Positions 21,699 to 28,907 of a stretch of DNA of 56,838 nt are shown piece by piece; positions within the stretch are counted from its first letter, which is position 1, and the number at the start of each line of letters is the position of its first letter. The notes under the pieces are model-generated. The model did no database searches, was not told the origin of the DNA, and saw only the letters and a program-made list of their open reading frames with translations. Where the stretch lies: the NCBI GenBank assembly GCA_020430845.1, contig JAGQJA010000066.1:1-56838 (forward strand). Reading direction: 5' to 3'. Position numbers and translations under genes: made by a program. This stretch comes from Myxococcales bacterium (GTDB lineage: Bacteria; Myxococcota_A; Polyangia; Polyangiales; Polyangiaceae).

Positions 21699-23360
21699 TC
21701 AGCGACCGCTCCACCGCTCGCCGAGCACACCCGAGAGCTTGCCCGTCGTCGCGCGCGCCTCGAACCGCACCGAGCGCGCCGTCGACGTCGCGCACGCGCG
21801 CACTTCGCCGCTGGTCTGGGCGTTGGACCTGTCGATCTCCTCGCCGCTCACGACGTCGTACGCGCGCAGCTCGATGCCGGTGCCGTCGCCCTCCACACCG
21901 AGGTAGACGCGCACGCAGCGCGACGGAGGGACCGTCGCCGCGTGCGAGGTCACGTGGCCTGCGTCGAGCGAGACGGCGTGCACCGCGCCCGACACGCCCC
22001 ACGGCGTGGGGCCCGCGAGCGCGCGCGCGAGCATGCGTGACGCCGCGAGCGGGTGCGACGCGAACGCCGCGTCGGTCCACGGCTCGTTGCGGACCATCAC
22101 GGCGTACGGCCCCGGACGCCCCACCGCCGCGAGGTCCAGTCGAGCCTTGCGCCCGCACGCGTAGAGGACCGCGCCGTCGGCCCCCTCGCCTTCGCCGAGC
22201 AACGCGCCGGCGTCGTCGGACGCCCGCGCCTCGACGAGCGCGAGCGGCGCGCCGGCCACCACGTCGATGCGCGAGCACGCGGCGCCGCGCGGTGCGTCGA
22301 CGTTGACGATGCTGCGCGCCCCGAGCAGCAACTTGCCGGCGCGACTCGACGTCGGGCTCCCGTAGCCGGCCTTTCCGAGCAACGCGCTCCGCGAGCGCTT
22401 GGCCGCTTCGAGGTCGAGCCTCGTGCCGTGCCACGCGACGTCGACGCGACCCGAGCCGTCACCCGCGCCGTCCATGCGGCCGCGCGAGAGGACGACGGCC
22501 ACGATGCCGCGACCGACGTGCGGGCGGATCTCGAGCGCGCCCGAGAAGCTCTCTCGCGAGCACACGACGACCGCCCGCGCCCCGTTGCCCTCGCGCGCGC
22601 GCGCGACGAGGCTCCCCCTGTCGTCGATCGCCTCGAGGTCCACGATCGCCACGTCGTCGTCGGGCACGACGAGGGCCGCCGTGCATCCGCCGGGCTCGAC
22701 CTGCAGCGCGAGGGTGCTCACGAGCCTCGCGTCGACGGTGACGGCCACCCGGCGCGCCTCGGTCCACGCGCCGCCGAGCGCCGCGCGGTGGGTCCGCACT
22801 GCGAAGTCGAGGCCGGGCCAGGCTTCCGGCGTCCGCGGCGTTCCGCCGAGAGCTCCCCTCGCGCCCGCGACGCGCGCGACCTCGCGCGAGGCGTCACGCG
22901 GCACCAGTTGGGCGGCCACCACGACGAGCCCCTCGCCCGTGGACGAGTGCGCCGACACGTAGACGCGATCGGGGTGCGGCGGGCACACGAGCAGGGTCGG
23001 ATGCGGGTCGCGTCCCTCGTCGACGGCGACCGGATTGCCGTCCTCGGAGTACGCGGCGAGATCGATGTCCTCGATCGACGACGCACCGCGCGCGTAGAGC
23101 AGGAGGCAGGTGGCCATCGGCACGTCGACGAACGCGCCCACGCGCTCGCCCTCGGAGAGCGGCCCCTGGCCGACGATGGTAAGCGGCCCGCCGCCGGCGG
23201 CGCGGACACGCGCGGGGAGATCTCCGAGCAGTGGAGAGCCGTCGAGCGCGCCCTGGGTCACGCGTGGCGCCCCGAGCGGCTCCGCGCCCGGCGACGCACC
23301 GGGCGCCGCGCGGGGACCGCACGCCATCACGGCGAGAGACAGCAACGCGGCGCGCTTCAC
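21699..23360 (-). CDS. Exported beta-rich protein, last gene of the cysteine operon
   Basis: 553 residues. GTG 23360 overlaps the stop of the upstream gene (GTGA), so it is translationally coupled. Short signal peptide with lipobox VMAC (Cys14). The body contains repeated segments with a Cys-valine-strand pattern (CLLLYARGASSIEDIDLAAY; CVRVYLGVEGDGTGIELRAY), resembling pre-peptidase C-terminal (PPC) or jelly-roll modules, probably three to four copies. No catalytic triad was found. It forms a pair with the gene at 23357-24664, which has similar segments. Why exported proteins follow a cytosolic cysteine pathway is unclear. Confidence 0.72.
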   Translation of the reverse strand: MKRAALLSLAVMACGPRAAPGASPGAEPLGAPRVTQGALDGSPLLGDLPARVRAAGGGPLTIVGQGPLSEGERVGAFVDVPMATCLLLYARGASSIEDIDLAAYSEDGNPVAVDEGRDPHPTLLVCPPHPDRVYVSAHSSTGEGLVVVAAQLVPRDASREVARVAGARGALGGTPRTPEAWPGLDFAVRTHRAALGGAWTEARRVAVTVDARLVSTLALQVEPGGCTAALVVPDDDVAIVDLEAIDDRGSLVARAREGNGARAVVVCSRESFSGALEIRPHVGRGIVAVVLSRGRMDGAGDGSGRVDVAWHGTRLDLEAAKRSRSALLGKAGYGSPTSSRAGKLLLGARSIVNVDAPRGAACSRIDVVAGAPLALVEARASDDAGALLGEGEGADGAVLYACGRKARLDLAAVGRPGPYAVMVRNEPWTDAAFASHPLAASRMLARALAGPTPWGVSGAVHAVSLDAGHVTSHAATVPPSRCVRVYLGVEGDGTGIELRAYDVVSGEEIDRSNAQTSGEVRACATSTARSVRFEARATTGKLSGVLGERWSGR

Positions 23361-24664
23361 GGAGGCCACGCCGCGCTCCTCACCCTGAAGACCGCGAGCG
23401 CCCACGCCAGGCCCGCGCCGCGCGCTTGGACCTCGAGGGACACCTTTTCATGTGCATACACGCAATAGGACGTCAGAGCGGCCTCGAAGGCGGCGCCCCG
23501 ATCGTCGGTCGACTCGCGACCGCCGATGCGCGCGCGGAGCTCGAAGGCGCGCACCTGGCCGTGCGTGAGCCCCACCACCGCCACGTAGCAGGCGCCCACC
23601 TCGCCCGGCGCGCGCACGGGCGTGGTCCCGGCGCCCCCTTGCACCATCAAGACCGGCTCGTCGGGAGGCACCGCCACGTGCCGCTGGAACAGCGCTCGCG
23701 CCATGTGGCTACGCACGACGGGGCCCCACAGCGGCGGCAGGCGCGCGGGCAGAGGCCAGGTCGACTGGCTCACGAGCACGCGCCCCCTGGGCGGAGCGCC
23801 GACGAACACCACCCCCACCGGCGTCGGCTCGCCGACGCACGCCTCGAGCCGCGCGTCCGGCGCCTCGGTGCGATCGCTCGCGAGCAGCGCGCCGTCGGCG
23901 GCGTGGCGCATCTCGGCGTCGACGTCGAAGCGCACGCGCGACTTGCCGCGGAGCTCCACGGCGAAGAGCTCGAGCCGGTGACATCCGGGCGTGAGCACCA
24001 TCTCGATCTCGCCGTTGCCGTCCTCGCCAGGCCGCGCGATCTCGCGCGCCGCGACGCGCCCGCCGTCGAGCCGCGCGCGGGCCTCGGCCGAGTCGGCGCG
24101 ACCCGACGCCGGGACGACAATGGGGAGATTTCCCGGCTCGGGCGCCGCGGGCAGTGCGCCGCCGGTCCGCTCGGGCACGACGCTCGCCAGGCTCGGGATC
24201 GTGCCGCGCACGCGGCCGACGACGATCTCGAGGGCGCCGCGACCGGCCGCGCTGGTGATGGCGACGTGACGCACGGCCTTGCCCCCGCACCGCTGGAGCT
24301 CGAGCACGCCGGCCAGGCTCGAGGCCCGCGCGCCCGGCTCTTCGTCGAGCGGGTCGGTCGAGGCGTCCGAGAGTCGCGCCCGAAAGCTCATCCCGCGCGA
24401 ACCGATGATCGCGACGTGCGTACACGCACCGTCGCCCTCGGCCGGCGGAGGCACCGGCACGAGCAAGCTCTCGTCGTCGTAGATGAACCGCGACGGGAGG
24501 GCGACCGTGCGCGCGCCCGCGCGGGCCCATTGCTCGTTCACGCGTCCTGCCAGCTCGCGCAGGTCGGCGCGAGCCACGCCCGGCGCCCACGCGCACGCGA
24601 GCGCGCCCAACGACACGGTGATGCGAACGAAGCGGCGCACGAACGGCCAGCGTACCACGCTCAC
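23357..24664 (-). CDS. Exported beta-rich protein coupled to the JAMM protease gene
   Basis: 435 residues. Signal peptide MSVVRWPFVRRFVRITVSLG with cleavage after GVARA (about 33). The mature part repeats CTHVAIIGSRGMSFRARLSD-type segments (near 80, 240 and 360), again like PPC-type beta sandwiches, with conserved Cys near each strand (CYVAVVGLTHGQVRAFELRA). GTG start overlaps the TGA of the upstream mec-like gene (GTGA), and its own stop overlaps the next start, so it lies within a coupled operon. Function unknown. Confidence 0.72.
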   Translation of the reverse strand: MSVVRWPFVRRFVRITVSLGALACAWAPGVARADLRELAGRVNEQWARAGARTVALPSRFIYDDESLLVPVPPPAEGDGACTHVAIIGSRGMSFRARLSDASTDPLDEEPGARASSLAGVLELQRCGGKAVRHVAITSAAGRGALEIVVGRVRGTIPSLASVVPERTGGALPAAPEPGNLPIVVPASGRADSAEARARLDGGRVAAREIARPGEDGNGEIEMVLTPGCHRLELFAVELRGKSRVRFDVDAEMRHAADGALLASDRTEAPDARLEACVGEPTPVGVVFVGAPPRGRVLVSQSTWPLPARLPPLWGPVVRSHMARALFQRHVAVPPDEPVLMVQGGAGTTPVRAPGEVGACYVAVVGLTHGQVRAFELRARIGGRESTDDRGAAFEAALTSYCVYAHEKVSLEVQARGAGLAWALAVFRVRSAAWPP

Positions 24665-25173
24665 TCGACGGTGAGCTTCGACTCCAAGAAGCCCCGGGAC
24701 GCGGCGTCCCAGACGAAGAGCTTTCGGTCGTCGACCTGCCCCGCCCGCACGCTCGTGACCAGGTACGCGAGGGCGTGCGTCGGGGCGTCTCCGCCCATCG
24801 TCGCCGCCTGCGCGTCCGTCTCCGAGAAGTACGCGCCCACGTCGAGGTGTGAGTGGTAAAGCACCTTGACGGGCCGACCCGCGGCCGCACCGGCGTCGAT
24901 GAGCCGCTCGAACTTGAGCGGGTCGATGTCGAAGTACATGCGCCCCGTGCGCGGGTAGGTCTCGGGATCGAGCGCGTGCAGCTTGTTCGCGCGGTTCTCG
25001 AGCGCGACGAGATCGTCGACGAGCCGCGCGTCGTCAGCCGGCCCGGTCAGCACGCCGCAGCTCTCCTCGTCGCGCCCGTACGCGGCCCGCGCCTCTTCGT
25101 CGATGCGTTCGAGCAGGGCCCGCGGCAGGCGCAGATCCCCCCGCGCCCACGGCGCGTCGGAGTCACCAGACAT
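24661..25173 (-). CDS. mec: JAMM-family metalloprotease (Mec type), cysteine-releasing
   Basis: 170 residues, single MPN+/JAMM domain. Zinc site HSH (His107, His109), Ser117 and Asp120 in H-x-H-x7-S-x2-D, with catalytic Glu37 in EESCG; all key residues are present. In actinobacteria Mec hydrolyses the CysO-cysteine adduct and frees cysteine. Location directly after cysM and close to a CysO-like carrier supports the same role here. It overlaps the cysM stop by 11 bases. Cytosolic, no signal peptide. Confidence 0.9.
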   Translation of the reverse strand: MSGDSDAPWARGDLRLPRALLERIDEEARAAYGRDEESCGVLTGPADDARLVDDLVALENRANKLHALDPETYPRTGRMYFDIDPLKFERLIDAGAAAGRPVKVLYHSHLDVGAYFSETDAQAATMGGDAPTHALAYLVTSVRAGQVDDRKLFVWDAASRGFLESKLTVE

Positions 25174-26101
25174 AGGTCTTCTCCCACTTCATCGGCGAAA
25201 AATACCTGTCCCCGCGGTCGCACACGATGACCACGACGCACCCCGGCTCCTCGCGAGCCTGGAGCTCTTCGGCGAGCTTCACGGCGGCGAACACGTTCGC
25301 GCCCGACGAGTGGCCCACGTGGATGCCCTCCTCGCGCGCGAGCGCGTCGGCCATGTCCCAGCCGTCCTCGGTCGAGACGCGGCGCACCTCGTCGTGCAGC
25401 GACGCGTCGTAGATGGCAGGCACGAGGCTCGACTCCATGTGCTTGAGGCCCTCGAGCCCGTGCAGCGCCGAGTCGGGCTCCACCGCGACACAACGGATCG
25501 GCCGGTGGTGCTCCTTGAGGCGCCGCGCCGTGCCCATCATGGTGCCGCTCGTGCCCAAGCCCGCGACGAAGTGCGTCACGCGGTCGCCGAGGTCGCGCAG
25601 GATCTCCGCGCCCGTGCCCTCGTAGTGCGCCCGCGGGTTCGACGGATTGGAGTACTGATCCGGATAGAAGTACGCGTCGGGATCGGCGTCGACGAGCTTC
25701 TTCGCCTCGCGGATGGCGCCGTCGGACCCCTCGAGGGGATCGCTCCACACGATCTCGGTCCCGAACGCGCGCACGATGTCCTTGCGCGGCTTGGAGACGT
25801 TCGACGGCATCACGAGCCGGACGCGCAGCCCGAGCGCCGCGCCGAACAGCGAGTACGCCACGCCCGTGTTGCCGCTCGTCGAGTCGATCAAGATCTTGTC
25901 GCGCGTCAGACGGCCGTCGGCCATCGCGTCGAGGATCATGCGACGGGCCGCGCGATCCTTGACGCTCCCTCCCGGGTTCTCGAACTCGAGCTTGGCGTAG
26001 ACGGGCACATCGGGCGCGCGACGCGTGACGACGCGCAGCCGCACGAGCGGCGTGTCGCCCACGGCGTCGAGCACCGACTCGATCCTCCGGGCGGCGCGCA
26101 C
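25163..26101 (-). CDS. cysM: CysO-dependent cysteine synthase (CysM type)
   Basis: 312 residues, PLP fold-type II. Lys48 in FENPGGSVKDR is the PLP Schiff-base lysine; TSGNTGVAY and GLGTSGTMMGTARRL bind substrate and phosphate. The C-terminal tail SPMKWEKTYVW is the extension seen in CysM of the CysO pathway, where it closes the active site. The CysM enzyme uses O-phosphoserine (or O-acetylserine) and thiocarboxylated CysO. GTG start immediately after the TGA of the upstream gene. The second synthase in the operon (27450-28433) is of CysK type, so the two probably use different sulfur donors. Confidence 0.92.
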   Translation of the reverse strand: MRAARRIESVLDAVGDTPLVRLRVVTRRAPDVPVYAKLEFENPGGSVKDRAARRMILDAMADGRLTRDKILIDSTSGNTGVAYSLFGAALGLRVRLVMPSNVSKPRKDIVRAFGTEIVWSDPLEGSDGAIREAKKLVDADPDAYFYPDQYSNPSNPRAHYEGTGAEILRDLGDRVTHFVAGLGTSGTMMGTARRLKEHHRPIRCVAVEPDSALHGLEGLKHMESSLVPAIYDASLHDEVRRVSTEDGWDMADALAREEGIHVGHSSGANVFAAVKLAEELQAREEPGCVVVIVCDRGDRYFSPMKWEKTYVW

Positions 26102-26425
26102 TCAGCCCTCCCCTGGCGTCGCGGAGAGAACGGCACCTCGAAAGGCGACGAGCGCGCGCATCGCCCCCTCGCCGACCTCGAGCGGCCCCGCGTGGCGGAG
26201 CCCGAGCGACGCCCACGCCGCGGGCAACGGCGGCGCGTCCGCATCGGCGCCGTCGCGCACCTGGGCGCCCGCCGCGAGCAGGTACGCCCGCTCGACGAGG
26301 CGCGCCTCGCCGTCACCCCCGAGGGGCGCGTGCGTCGCCGCGAGGCGCTCTTGCCCCGCGACGCCCACCTCTCGCAGACGGACCTGCCGCCCGTGACGCA
26401 GGAGATCGACGGCCACGCGCGTCAT
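26102..26425 (-). CDS. Truncated E1-like protein carrying the MoeB/ThiF N-terminal Arg-Gln helix
   Basis: 107 residues, coupled on both sides: ATGA overlap with cysO, and stop directly before cysM. Residues 11-54 align without gaps to the N-terminus of E. coli MoeB: RQ at 13-14 (MoeB Arg14-Gln15), L17, GQE at 24-26, L28 and YL..AG at 48-53. The Gly-rich ATP loop GxGGxG is degraded (LGGDGE). No Cys, no CxxC zinc pairs, no catalytic Asp. The C-terminal GAMRALVAFRGAVL resembles the last helix of E1 domains. MoeB Arg14 acts in trans across the dimer, and the operon's full E1 lacks this helix, so the protein may be a complementing subunit. A decayed duplicate is the alternative. Confidence 0.8.
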   Translation of the reverse strand: MTRVAVDLLRHGRQVRLREVGVAGQERLAATHAPLGGDGEARLVERAYLLAAGAQVRDGADADAPPLPAAWASLGLRHAGPLEVGEGAMRALVAFRGAVLSATPGEG

Positions 26426-26694
26426 CCGCCGGCGATCGCGGGCACGATGCTGATCTGGTCGCCGCTCTTGAGCTCGGTGGCGAGCCCGCCGGTGAAGCGC
26501 ACGTCTTCTTCTCCGACGTAGATGTTCACGAAGCGGCGCACGCCCTTCTCGTCGAGCAGCCGGTCGCGCAGCCCGGGGTGACGGCGCTCGAGATCTTCGA
26601 TGACCGCGCCCACCGTGCCGCCTTCGGCGGAGACCTCGTCGGCGCCGCCGGTCAAGCTGCGCAGCGCTGCGGGAATTCTAACCAAGGTGTCCAT
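26422..26694 (-). CDS. cysO: CysO-like sulfur carrier protein (ThiS/MoaD fold)
   Basis: 90 residues ending in Ala-Gly-Gly, so the C-terminal diglycine needed for adenylation and thiocarboxylation is already exposed. RFVNIYVGEEDVRFTGGLAT and the ending VPAIAGG closely match actinobacterial CysO. The start is ATG 26694: GGAGG lies 7 bases upstream, whereas ATG 26700 directly abuts it. Adenylated by the E1 next door, it receives sulfide and donates it to CysM. Overlaps the next gene by ATGA. Confidence 0.93.
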   Translation of the reverse strand: MDTLVRIPAALRSLTGGADEVSAEGGTVGAVIEDLERRHPGLRDRLLDEKGVRRFVNIYVGEEDVRFTGGLATELKSGDQISIVPAIAGG

Positions 26695-26724
26695 GTTCAT
26701 TCCTCCGTCGATGGCTCTTGTGGT

Positions 26725-27453
26725 TCATGCTTCGCACGCCGCCTGTGCGACGTAGCGAGAGGTCGTGAGCGAGGCGATGCTCCGGTCTTCGGAGCAGAGG
26801 GCGCAGCCGCGGCGCGGGCGCACCGTGCGACGCCGGGCGGTCATCGCGAGCCCGTCGAAAGTGACGAGCTCACCGGCGACCACGAGATCGGTCAGCAGCG
26901 AGATGGCGAGGTCTGCCTGCGCGGCCGCGACGACGCCGACCACGGGGCCCACCACGCCGGCCGAGTCGCACGTGGCCGCCTCACCCTCGGGCAAGTCCTC
27001 GAACAGGCAGCGGTAGCAGGGCGCGCCCTCCGCCGAGACTGCGAGCGCCGTGCCGTGCCACCGGATGGCCGCGCCATGGACGACGGGGCGCCGCTCGAGG
27101 GCGCACGCGTCGGCGAGCAAGAACTTCGTGGCGAAGTTGTCCGAGCCGTCGATGGCGAGATCGTACCCGCGCACCAGCTCGCGCGCGTTGCGCGGCGTGA
27201 GGCGCGCGTCGTGCGGCTCGACGCGCAGCGATGGCGCGCGCGCGACGAGGGCCTTCGCGGCGACCGACACCTTGGGCTCGCCGACGTCGGCCTCGCCGAA
27301 GAGGATCTGCCGGTGCAGGTTGCTCGCGTCGACGCGATCGTCGTCGACAAGCCCGAGCGTCCCCACGCCCGCGAGCGCCAGCGCGAGCGCCGCCGGACAG
27401 CCGAGACCGCCCACGCCCACGACGAGCACGCGCGCGTCGGCGAGGCGCGTCAC
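26725..27453 (-). CDS. MoeB/ThiF-type E1 adenylyltransferase lacking the N-terminal helix
   Basis: 242 residues. Present: ATP loop GVGGLG (13-18), DDDRVDASNLHRQ (MoeB Arg73 equivalent), GEPKV (Lys86), DGSDN (Asp130), zinc pairs CYRC and CALC, and TCDSAGVVGP with the candidate transthiolation Cys. Absent: the first 25-30 residues of the family with the RxxRQ...GQ helix; the frame starts directly at RLADARVLVVG. The GTG overlaps the cysK stop (GTGA), and upstream codons in this frame are cysK sequence read out of frame, so no longer form exists. It activates the CysO carboxyl end as acyl-adenylate. No rhodanese domain is fused. Confidence 0.93.
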   Translation of the reverse strand: MTRLADARVLVVGVGGLGCPAALALALAGVGTLGLVDDDRVDASNLHRQILFGEADVGEPKVSVAAKALVARAPSLRVEPHDARLTPRNARELVRGYDLAIDGSDNFATKFLLADACALERRPVVHGAAIRWHGTALAVSAEGAPCYRCLFEDLPEGEAATCDSAGVVGPVVGVVAAAQADLAISLLTDLVVAGELVTFDGLAMTARRRTVRPRRGCALCSEDRSIASLTTSRYVAQAACEA

Positions 27454-28433
27454 GGCGCGACCCCGGCGAAGTGCTCTTCGAGGCTGAAGTATCGCTCTCC
27501 CGTGTCGCACAGGATCGTGACGACGTTCTTGCCAGGACCGAGCTCGCGCGCGATCTCGGCCGCGACGTGCACGTTGGCGCCCGCGCTGATGCCGACGAGC
27601 AGGCCCTCGCGCTGCGCGAGCGAGACCTTGGCGCGCCACGCGTCGACGTCACGGACCGTGCGCACCTCGTCGACCGCCGACGGGTCGTAGTTGCCGGGCA
27701 CGAAGCCCGCGGCGAGCCCTTGGATCTTGGTGGGTCCCCGCTCGCCGCGCGAGATGGTCGCGCACGCCTCGGGCTCGACGGCGACGACCCTGGCGCTGGG
27801 GAACGCCGCCTTGAGCTCGCGCCCCACACCGCTCACCGTGCCCCCCGTGCCCACGCCCGCCACGAACGCGTGCACCGCGAGGCCGTCCATGGCGTCCTTG
27901 ATCTCTCGGGCCGTCGTACGCGCGTGCACGTCGGGGTTGGCCGGGTTGTCGAACTGGTGGGGCATGAACGCCCCCGGCGTCGACGCGGCGATCTCCTTGG
28001 CGCGCGCGATGGCGCCATCCATCTGCTCCTCGGCGGGCGTGAGCACGATCTCGGCGCCGTACGCGGCGAGCAGCTGCCGGCGCTCGAGGCTCATGCTCTC
28101 GGGCATCGTGAGGATGCAGCGGTAGCCCTTGACCGAGCAGATCCACGCGAGCCCGATGCCCGTGTTGCCGCTCGTCGGCTCGACGACCACGCCGCGCGGC
28201 TCGTCGACCGCGGGCGCCCCCGAGGGCCCGGGCGCGCGGCTGTCGCGGGCCCGCTTGAGCACGCCACGCGCCTCGGCGTCCTCGATCATGGCCTTGCAGA
28301 TGCGGTCCTTGACGCTCCCGCCCGGGTTGAGGTGCTCCATCTTGGCGAAGACGGCCGCGCGCCCGTCGCCACCGTGGCGGATCCGGACGAGGGGCGTCGC
28401 CCCCACGAGCTCGAGCATCGACTCGACGATCAC
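27450..28433 (-). CDS. cysK: Cysteine synthase, CysK type (O-acetylserine sulfhydrylase)
   Basis: 327 residues, PLP fold-type II. Lys42 in NPGGSVKDR is the PLP lysine; PTSGNTGIGLA and GVGTGGTVSGVG bind substrate and phosphate. A 15-20 residue insertion rich in Pro/Ala/Arg (about 62-80, KRARDSRAPGPSG) lies before the PTSGN loop and is unusual. First structural gene after the Rrf2 regulator, 37 bases away. In Firmicutes CysK also acts as co-repressor partner of the Rrf2 protein CymR; the gene order makes a similar arrangement worth testing. Confidence 0.93.
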   Translation of the reverse strand: MIVESMLELVGATPLVRIRHGGDGRAAVFAKMEHLNPGGSVKDRICKAMIEDAEARGVLKRARDSRAPGPSGAPAVDEPRGVVVEPTSGNTGIGLAWICSVKGYRCILTMPESMSLERRQLLAAYGAEIVLTPAEEQMDGAIARAKEIAASTPGAFMPHQFDNPANPDVHARTTAREIKDAMDGLAVHAFVAGVGTGGTVSGVGRELKAAFPSARVVAVEPEACATISRGERGPTKIQGLAAGFVPGNYDPSAVDEVRTVRDVDAWRAKVSLAQREGLLVGISAGANVHVAAEIARELGPGKNVVTILCDTGERYFSLEEHFAGVAP

Positions 28434-28469: not shown

Positions 28470-28907
28470 TCAGATGACATACGTGCCTCCGGGGGGTCTC
28501 TGCAGGGCGCGGGCGCCCTCGCTCGCGCACAGGTCGCCGATCGTGACCTCGTCGAAGCAGCGCTCCACCGACCGCGTCAGGTCCCACAAGAAGAGCTCGG
28601 GCACCTCGCGCAGCTCTCCGCGTGCCCGCTTGGGCGGCGCGGTCGAGATGGGGCCCTCGACCGCCCGGACCACGTCGCCCAGGCGCACTTGCTCGGGCGC
28701 CTTGGCCAACACGAACCCGCCGCGCGGTCCGCGCTTGGACGAGACGATGCCTGCGCGCTTGAGATCGCCGAAGATCTGCTCGAGGAAGCGGAGCGGGATG
28801 CGCTGCCGCTCGGCGATGTCGCGCACGAGGGCGGGCGCGGGCGCGTGGAACGCCACGTCGAACACCGCGCGCACCGCGTAGCGGCACTTGCTCGAGAGCT
28901 TGAGCAC
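28470..28907 (-). CDS. Rrf2-family regulator (CymR-like)
   Basis: 145 residues. N-terminal winged helix (KCRYAVRAVFDVAFH; IPLRFLEQIFGDLKRAGIV; GPRGGFVLAKAPEQV) and C-terminal dimerisation helix. The three closely spaced cysteines that hold the IscR cluster are missing in the 90-110 region, which favours a CymR-type cysteine-metabolism repressor over IscR. GTG start with AGGGG close by. It heads the cysteine operon and probably controls it. Candidate binding sites lie in the AT-richer stretch just upstream. Confidence 0.9.
   Translation of the reverse strand: MLKLSSKCRYAVRAVFDVAFHAPAPALVRDIAERQRIPLRFLEQIFGDLKRAGIVSSKRGPRGGFVLAKAPEQVRLGDVVRAVEGPISTAPPKRARGELREVPELFLWDLTRSVERCFDEVTIGDLCASEGARALQRPPGGTYVI

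Follow-up and report, generated by a model that had tools for sequence, protein, structure and literature searches.

A candidate asymmetric E1 enzyme with a truncated active subunit and a putative shrunken pseudo-E1 in Myxococcota

We analyzed a stretch of 56,838 nucleotides from a Myxococcales bacterium (contig JAGQJA010000066.1 of assembly GCA_020430845.1), which is referred to here as the window. It encodes an N-truncated E1 enzyme of the MoeB/ThiF type (positions 26725–27453, minus strand) and a protein of 107 residues (26102–26425, minus strand), which is designated S. S and the truncated E1 probably form one asymmetric E1, in which S serves in trans as the partner subunit; we assign a probability of about 0.72 to this reading. 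The large subunit would bind ATP-Mg and the sulfur carrier and carry out the chemistry. S would be a pseudo-E1 that has lost its ATP site but not the parts needed for pairing with the catalytic subunit. Its Arg13 would reach the ATP phosphates in trans, a role that the second protomer plays in MoeB and the inactive adenylation domain in UBA1. In the course of evolution, a full second E1 would have shrunk to approximately 95–110 residues, and the active copy would have shed its N-terminal segment.

The homology, co-occurrence, fusions, conservation, and intermediates described below come from sequence, and the fold and docking are predicted; complex formation, the contact between Arg13 and ATP, and the need of S for activity are what we infer. 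A requirement of Arg13 for catalysis is clearly less certain than the formation of the asymmetric enzyme because the arginine finger is reported to be non-essential in MoeB and ThiF and because one lineage with truncated E1s (family f16, see below) lives without S.

The truncated E1 and protein S

The E1 starts at its ATP loop (GVGGLG, residues 13–18; 27400–27417, minus strand) and lacks the N-terminus of its family, as originally predicted. Only 12 residues precede the motif, Pfam ThiF matches only from position 16 (16–234, E = 1.3e-65), and the MoeB models TIGR02355 and PRK05690 match only from positions 21 and 29. The protein has the ThiF fold with GxGGxG, Asn/Arg, Lys, Asp, and the crossover Cys, which places it in the family. 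Its own N-terminal arginine-finger helix is absent; it therefore represents the body of an E1 and not a complete MoeB. Pfam detected ThiF alone in the 242 residues, and neither a Cys domain nor a ubiquitin-fold domain was found. An error of frame or start was considered and rejected: the frame is open upstream to 27639, but this stretch is cysK in another frame and holds no RQ helix.

A scan of genome contigs with the E1 as the query gave 80 loci and, with the window, 81; the N-terminal segment is missing from the E1 in 65 of them and present in 16. With E1 starts chosen by script, the median number of residues before the GVGGLG-type motif is 13 in the truncated and 38 in the full-length E1s. 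Residues 1, 3, and 4 of the ATP loop are Gly in all 90 truncated E1 rows outside f16. The truncated E1s are all set off by a single branch of the E1 tree (SH-aLRT, a likelihood-ratio branch support, of 98), which agrees with a single origin of the split. The genome of the window has a second E1 (C592) of full length. A search of this genome with S as the query led to one place, the window; the phylum-wide search described below hits C592 only in its own N-terminus.

S carries the segment that the E1 lacks, with RQ at residues 13–14 (Arg13-Gln14, 26384–26389, minus strand) and GQE at residues 24–26, and it is devoid of GxGGxG, the catalytic Asp, and the Cys pairs in the family alignment (A1); all of this agrees with the original prediction. 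A gap-free alignment with MoeB of approximately 44 residues had also been proposed, and residues 7–54 of S match positions 9–56 of PRK05690, 48 against 48 positions, at a weak single-sequence E value of 0.0024. The profile of the S family (A1, 54 rows) matched the solved structures of Uba4 (1.5e-9), ThiF (8.6e-9), and MoeB (4.6e-6), and 40 of the 54 members individually matched the ThiF model at E ≤ 0.01. By profile positions, Arg13 corresponds to Arg14 of MoeB and Arg11 of ThiF. In correction of the original prediction, S is more than the missing helix and also contains a degenerate β1-αA-β2 unit and a C-terminal helix. The former (residues 31–57; 26255–26335, minus strand), located by AlphaFold2 (AF2) secondary structure and alignment, has lost the ATP loop and retained YLxxAG. 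The latter (residues 79–100; 26126–26191, minus strand) aligns with the C-terminal part of the E1 fold in VIA-align of the AF2 model. This model (predicted local distance difference test score, 88.6; predicted template modeling score, 0.80) has a mini-E1 fold with the C-terminal helix, and its residues 3–103 align with residues 4–217 of MoeB. S thus has the homology to the E1 fold, the loss of the ATP loop and catalytic residues, and the conserved Arg at the trans position that are expected of an inactive E1 subunit.

Only two columns are invariant in the 54 rows of A1, namely Arg13 and Gly53; Gln14, Gly21, Gly24, Gln25, Tyr48, Ala52, Gly87, and Ala91 are conserved at 90% or more. Starts of S were set by the R[QH] motif and its open frames were chosen by profile. 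Six of the 60 rows were omitted from A1: L044 because it is fused to the following gene, L064, L075, L095, and L111 because they are truncated by the ends of their contigs, and L079 because it is almost as long as a complete E1. All six carry the Arg. A further 27 copies (20 + 7) have Arg (24), Lys (1), or His (2) at this position. A lack of purifying selection on Arg13 had been named as a point that would speak against the original prediction; Arg13 is conserved with few exceptions (54/54 aligned rows and 24/27 further copies). The Nei-Gojobori ratio of nonsynonymous to synonymous substitution rates (dN/dS) of S is below 1 (0.20–0.82) in 25/25 of the closest pairs listed. The two S copies with His at the arginine-finger position (L180:4327-4704 and L181:4363-4623) adjoin a truncated E1.

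Association of S with the truncated E1

S was found in the same locus or fused in 61 of the 65 truncated E1 loci (60 separate, and one fused, L093). In the remaining four (L034, L076, L085, and L091), the contig ends before the expected place of S. The original prediction had named a full-length E1 and S in one operon as the finding that would speak against it; S is absent from all 16 full-length loci of the 81-locus set. The 80 loci, which also provide the coverage outside Myxococcota, were ranked by likeness to a truncated E1, so that other phyla supply most of the full-length controls. We therefore surveyed 40 Myxococcota genomes, which were picked by eye from a phylum-wide search for S. 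This search matched 322 of 377 genomes, and among the matches listed, many lie in open frames of approximately 400 residues, which we read as N-termini of full-length E1s. The survey found 17 genomes with truncated E1 and S, 10 with truncated E1 and without S, and 13 with neither; none of the 40 has S without a truncated E1. The 17 include one genome with E1 and S on different contigs (G378) and one with the two fused (G066), and the pairs of G133 and G323 were counted though their PF00899 match starts at 7, not at 14 or later. In the genomes with neither, eight secondary ThiF-fold loci from at most six genomes were read and resemble other ThiF families; the other secondary ThiF matches were judged only by Pfam start, open-frame length, and absence of a match to S. 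Another 20 loci were picked on matches to S and are therefore uninformative on co-occurrence. The split E1 occurs in many soil myxobacteria.

Fusions were found in both orders. In L093, S forms the C-terminus of the E1, while L173 has S before E1, the order of UBA1 and BilD; Pfam found no domain besides ThiF in the L173 fusion. An AF2 model of the L093 fusion aligns with UBA1, UBA6, and UBA7 over 263–280 residues at 3.1–3.6 Å, a length for which the E1 part alone cannot account. S is therefore predicted to sit at the place of the second adenylation domain of UBA1. The alignment behind the model (A3, 52 rows) used six of 59 E1 rows, chosen so that MAFFT put 45 S rows on the S part of the fusion, which left a shallow E1 depth. 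The rows were chosen by alignment register and not by a structural result. An earlier alignment (A2), in which the S rows fell on the body of the E1, was set aside.

S is tied to E1 and not to the cysteine genes because pairs occur without cysteine genes and because fusions exist in both orders. In the fetched DNA, E1 and S occur without cysO, cysK, cysM, or the JAB gene at 13 loci (L044, L045, L052, L057, L060, L069, L077, L080, L089, L093, L099, L173, and L176), some of which stop soon after S (L060 and L093). At L044, L045, L057, and L069, the pair is flanked by both neighbors that it has in the window (the M19 dipeptidase gene and the gene at 23357–24664), and the Rrf2 and cysteine genes are absent; at these loci, genes were lost around the retained E1/S pair. 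On the E1 tree, the presence of cysteine genes changes 12 times among 90 rows by parsimony, a rough count with many weak branches. The pair of L060 adjoins moeA and a mobA-like gene, and that of L052 adjoins an aminotransferase class V gene, which is read as a cysteine desulfurase. Heteromeric E1 for CysO had been the original proposal. Its heteromeric part is supported by the co-occurrence, the two fusion orders, the conservation of Arg13, and the predicted fold and docking; however, the pair is not limited to CysO.

Three of these loci have further features. The moeA and mobA-like neighbors (L060:2621-5708) hint that a split E1 can serve molybdenum cofactor synthesis. L176 has E1, S downstream of it with a weak match (E = 6e-7), and a MoaA-like gene (Radical_SAM and Mob_synth_C) on the same contig. 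In L044:5720-7339, S continues in frame into the homologue of the 23357–24664 gene as an open frame of 539 residues, which is a fusion or an assembly error.

Gene order at the locus and origin of S

On the minus strand of the window, the genes follow each other in tight packing. The order is an Rrf2-family regulator (28470–28907, Pfam Rrf2, E = 1.6e-28), a CysK-like cysteine synthase (cysK, 27450–28433, above the cut-off of TIGR01139 at 2.8e-109), E1, a MoaD/CysO-like sulfur carrier with the C-terminus AGG (26422–26700, Pfam ThiS, 5.2e-17), S, a CysM-like cysteine synthase (cysM, 25163–26101, PALP, 3.5e-64; the cysKM and cysM models match below their cut-offs), and a Mec-like JAB peptidase (24661–25173, Prok-JAB, 1.4e-11). 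The E1 gene starts with GTG and overlaps the stop of cysK by 4 nt. Intact overlapping starts had been claimed on both sides of S. This holds on the cysO side, where the ATG of S overlaps the cysO stop by 4 nt, but cysM starts directly after the stop of S and only abuts it. The genes at 23357–24664 and 21699–23405 encode conserved proteins that matched no Pfam family at E 0.01. They adjoin the E1/S locus in several relatives and remain beside E1 and S where the cysteine genes are gone.

S is best read, from sequence comparison, as a duplicated full E1 that shrank rather than as a cut-off N-terminus, because its longer relatives (209–248 residues) are near-complete inactive E1s. Two of them (L079 and L151) occupy the same slot, between the carrier gene and cysM; they have lost the ATP loop and keep a CxxC pair near the end. 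The profile of three long forms (L079, L151, and the contig-cut L150) aligned with that of nine full-length E1s over 198 columns (5–219 of 225 against 2–253 of 278), with an hhalign probability of 98.4 and a pairwise E value of 4.5e-15. Single-sequence matches of the long forms are significant only over the first 50–60 positions. S measures 147–167 residues in L147, L148, L152, L154, and L155 and approximately 95–135 in many others. Simple gene fission was rejected, as S repeats in degenerate form the β1-αA-β2 unit that the E1 body still has and the longer relatives hold more of the fold. Duplication with complementary loss fits better. L079:5585-7003 and L151:3412-4674, where the pseudo-E1 is near full length, also have a threonine-synthase-like gene (PALP family in L151) between the E1 and carrier genes.

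The truncated E1s without S form the family f16 (L163–L172, 10 genomes). The operon is otherwise unchanged in nine of the 10, with only 71–166 nt between the matches of MoaD and cysM; in L171, the contig stops short of the position of Rrf2, and in L169, only E1 and JAB were seen. The S profile gave one match per genome, inside a full-length E1, with 122 candidates scored in most genomes, so that a very weak S could escape. The f16 E1s group in a single clade (SH-aLRT 97) within the S-bearing E1s; S was therefore probably lost in this lineage. They are altered at several positions that are conserved in most full-length and S-bearing E1s, for example Asp98, Gly103, Phe107, Leu112, and Arg131 (window E1 numbering). 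These core changes, noticed after the fact, may be an adaptation to the loss of S. The family is a natural test of the role of S.

Possible roles of S and comparison with known systems

Several findings weigh against an asymmetric E1 with Arg13 as its finger. S was not detected in the 10 f16 genomes, whose E1s retain GxGGxG, Asn, Arg, Lys, Asp, and the crossover Cys in 10/10 (columns located through the motifs of the window E1); therefore, S can be lost. The finger position is Lys in L159 and His in L180 and L181, which belong to one genus. According to the available text of PMC13139853, the arginine fingers of MoeB and ThiF are not essential, and finger mutation in Tcd1-Tcd2 has little effect. 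For the docking, AF2 was run on a single chain, from unpaired rows of which few were E1s, and no E1 homodimer was there to compete; a piece that resembles an E1 would be prone to occupy the vacant interface, and the network may be reproducing UBA1.

S may instead be a stabilizing or assembly subunit that covers the dimer interface or aids solubility, with Arg13 kept for packing and not for catalysis. This is a tentative possibility. The stability of Tcd2 depends on the inactive Tcd1 (PMC13139853, available text), three S copies lack the Arg, and the loss of S in f16 is accompanied by changed E1 core positions. However, only two columns, one of them Arg13, do not vary among the 54 rows. It is unlikely that the E1 still homodimerizes and that S adds its helix in an E1(2)S(2) assembly without replacing the second protomer. 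MoeB and ThiF are indeed homodimers (PMC12355090, available text), and f16 E1s occur without S; against this, S keeps a whole degenerate mini-fold and the C-terminal helix, beyond the needs of a helix donor, and the fusion model would put it in place of a second adenylation domain.

That S is an adaptor of the cysteine pathway, binding CysO or CysM and adjoining E1 only through the operon, is suggested by its place between cysO and cysM in the window. We rejected this role as very improbable: E1 and S occur at 13 loci without a cysteine gene, their fusions have both orders, the L060 pair adjoins moeA and a mobA-like gene, and f16 keeps the cysteine genes without S. A functionless decaying duplicate would explain why S has lost much sequence relative to E1 and is absent in f16. 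With dN/dS below 1 in 25/25 of the closest pairs listed, the Arg conserved, and open frames at 60 loci, decay is hardly credible and was also rejected. S as the partner subunit of an asymmetric E1 remains the preferred reading.

E1 evolution led from homodimers with two active sites (MoeB and ThiF) to asymmetric enzymes in which only one of the halves is active (UBA1, NAE, and SAE). A comparable asymmetry within the simple branch of E1s that serve sulfur carriers, here in bacteria and with an inactive half of approximately 100 residues, makes the role of the inactive half testable. The roles of interface, arginine finger, and second active site can be separated by comparing the minimal S with its Arg13 mutant, with the natural variants that carry Lys or His, and with the f16 enzymes that lack S. 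It is fairly likely, if less so than the asymmetric E1 itself, that Myxococcota evolved, independently of eukaryotes, a two-subunit sulfur-carrier E1 with an active and an inactive subunit (the latter of approximately 95–110 residues). Its intermediates, namely the near-full pseudo-E1s, the forms of 147–167 residues, the fusions in both orders, and the S-free lineage, would record the path from an obligate homodimer to a heterodimer that shed its second active site.

The catalytic body and motifs of the truncated E1 are like those of MoeB and ThiF, whose arginine finger (Arg14 and Arg11) corresponds to Arg13 of S. The original prediction had the Arg of the MoeB helix act in the active site of the partner; according to PMC13139853 (available text), Arg11 of ThiF comes from the neighboring subunit and is the same arginine finger as Arg14 of MoeB. 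A single polypeptide holds both helix and active site in MoeB and ThiF, whereas here they are divided between two proteins, and the second copy is inactive and has approximately 100 residues. The operon resembles the CysO-type operons 4b–4d of Iyer 2006, which combine ThiS/MoaD and JAB with, depending on type, E1 and cysteine synthase; E1 is fused to rhodanese in types 4b and 4c, and the available text of that paper describes no split E1 (PMC1779556). We found no description of a split E1 of this kind in the open-licence literature (PMC), which is no proof of absence.

APPBP1/NAE1-UBA3, SAE1-UBA2, and the inactive and active adenylation domains (IAD and AAD) of UBA1 are known parallels with an inactive partner half. 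Compared with the eukaryotic E1s, the window E1 has only ThiF by Pfam, S is far smaller, and the setting is that of a sulfur carrier. In yeast Tcd1-Tcd2, a ThiF-fold heterodimer, the arginine finger comes from the inactive subunit; unlike E1 and S, both subunits are full length and the substrate is tRNA (PMC13139853, available text). BilD of the bacterial Bil operon pairs an inactive and an active adenylation domain as a pseudodimer, with the same order in one chain as L173; by its description, it is set apart by that single chain, a catalytic Cys domain, and an ISG15-like protein (PMC11354881, available text). The window, in contrast, has two genes, only ThiF by Pfam, and a MoaD/CysO carrier. 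Asymmetric E1s are therefore already known (SAE, NAE, UBA1, BilD, and Tcd1-Tcd2); what differs here is that a bacterial E1 for sulfur carriers is encoded by two genes, that its putative inactive subunit has approximately 100 residues, and that intermediates are still living.
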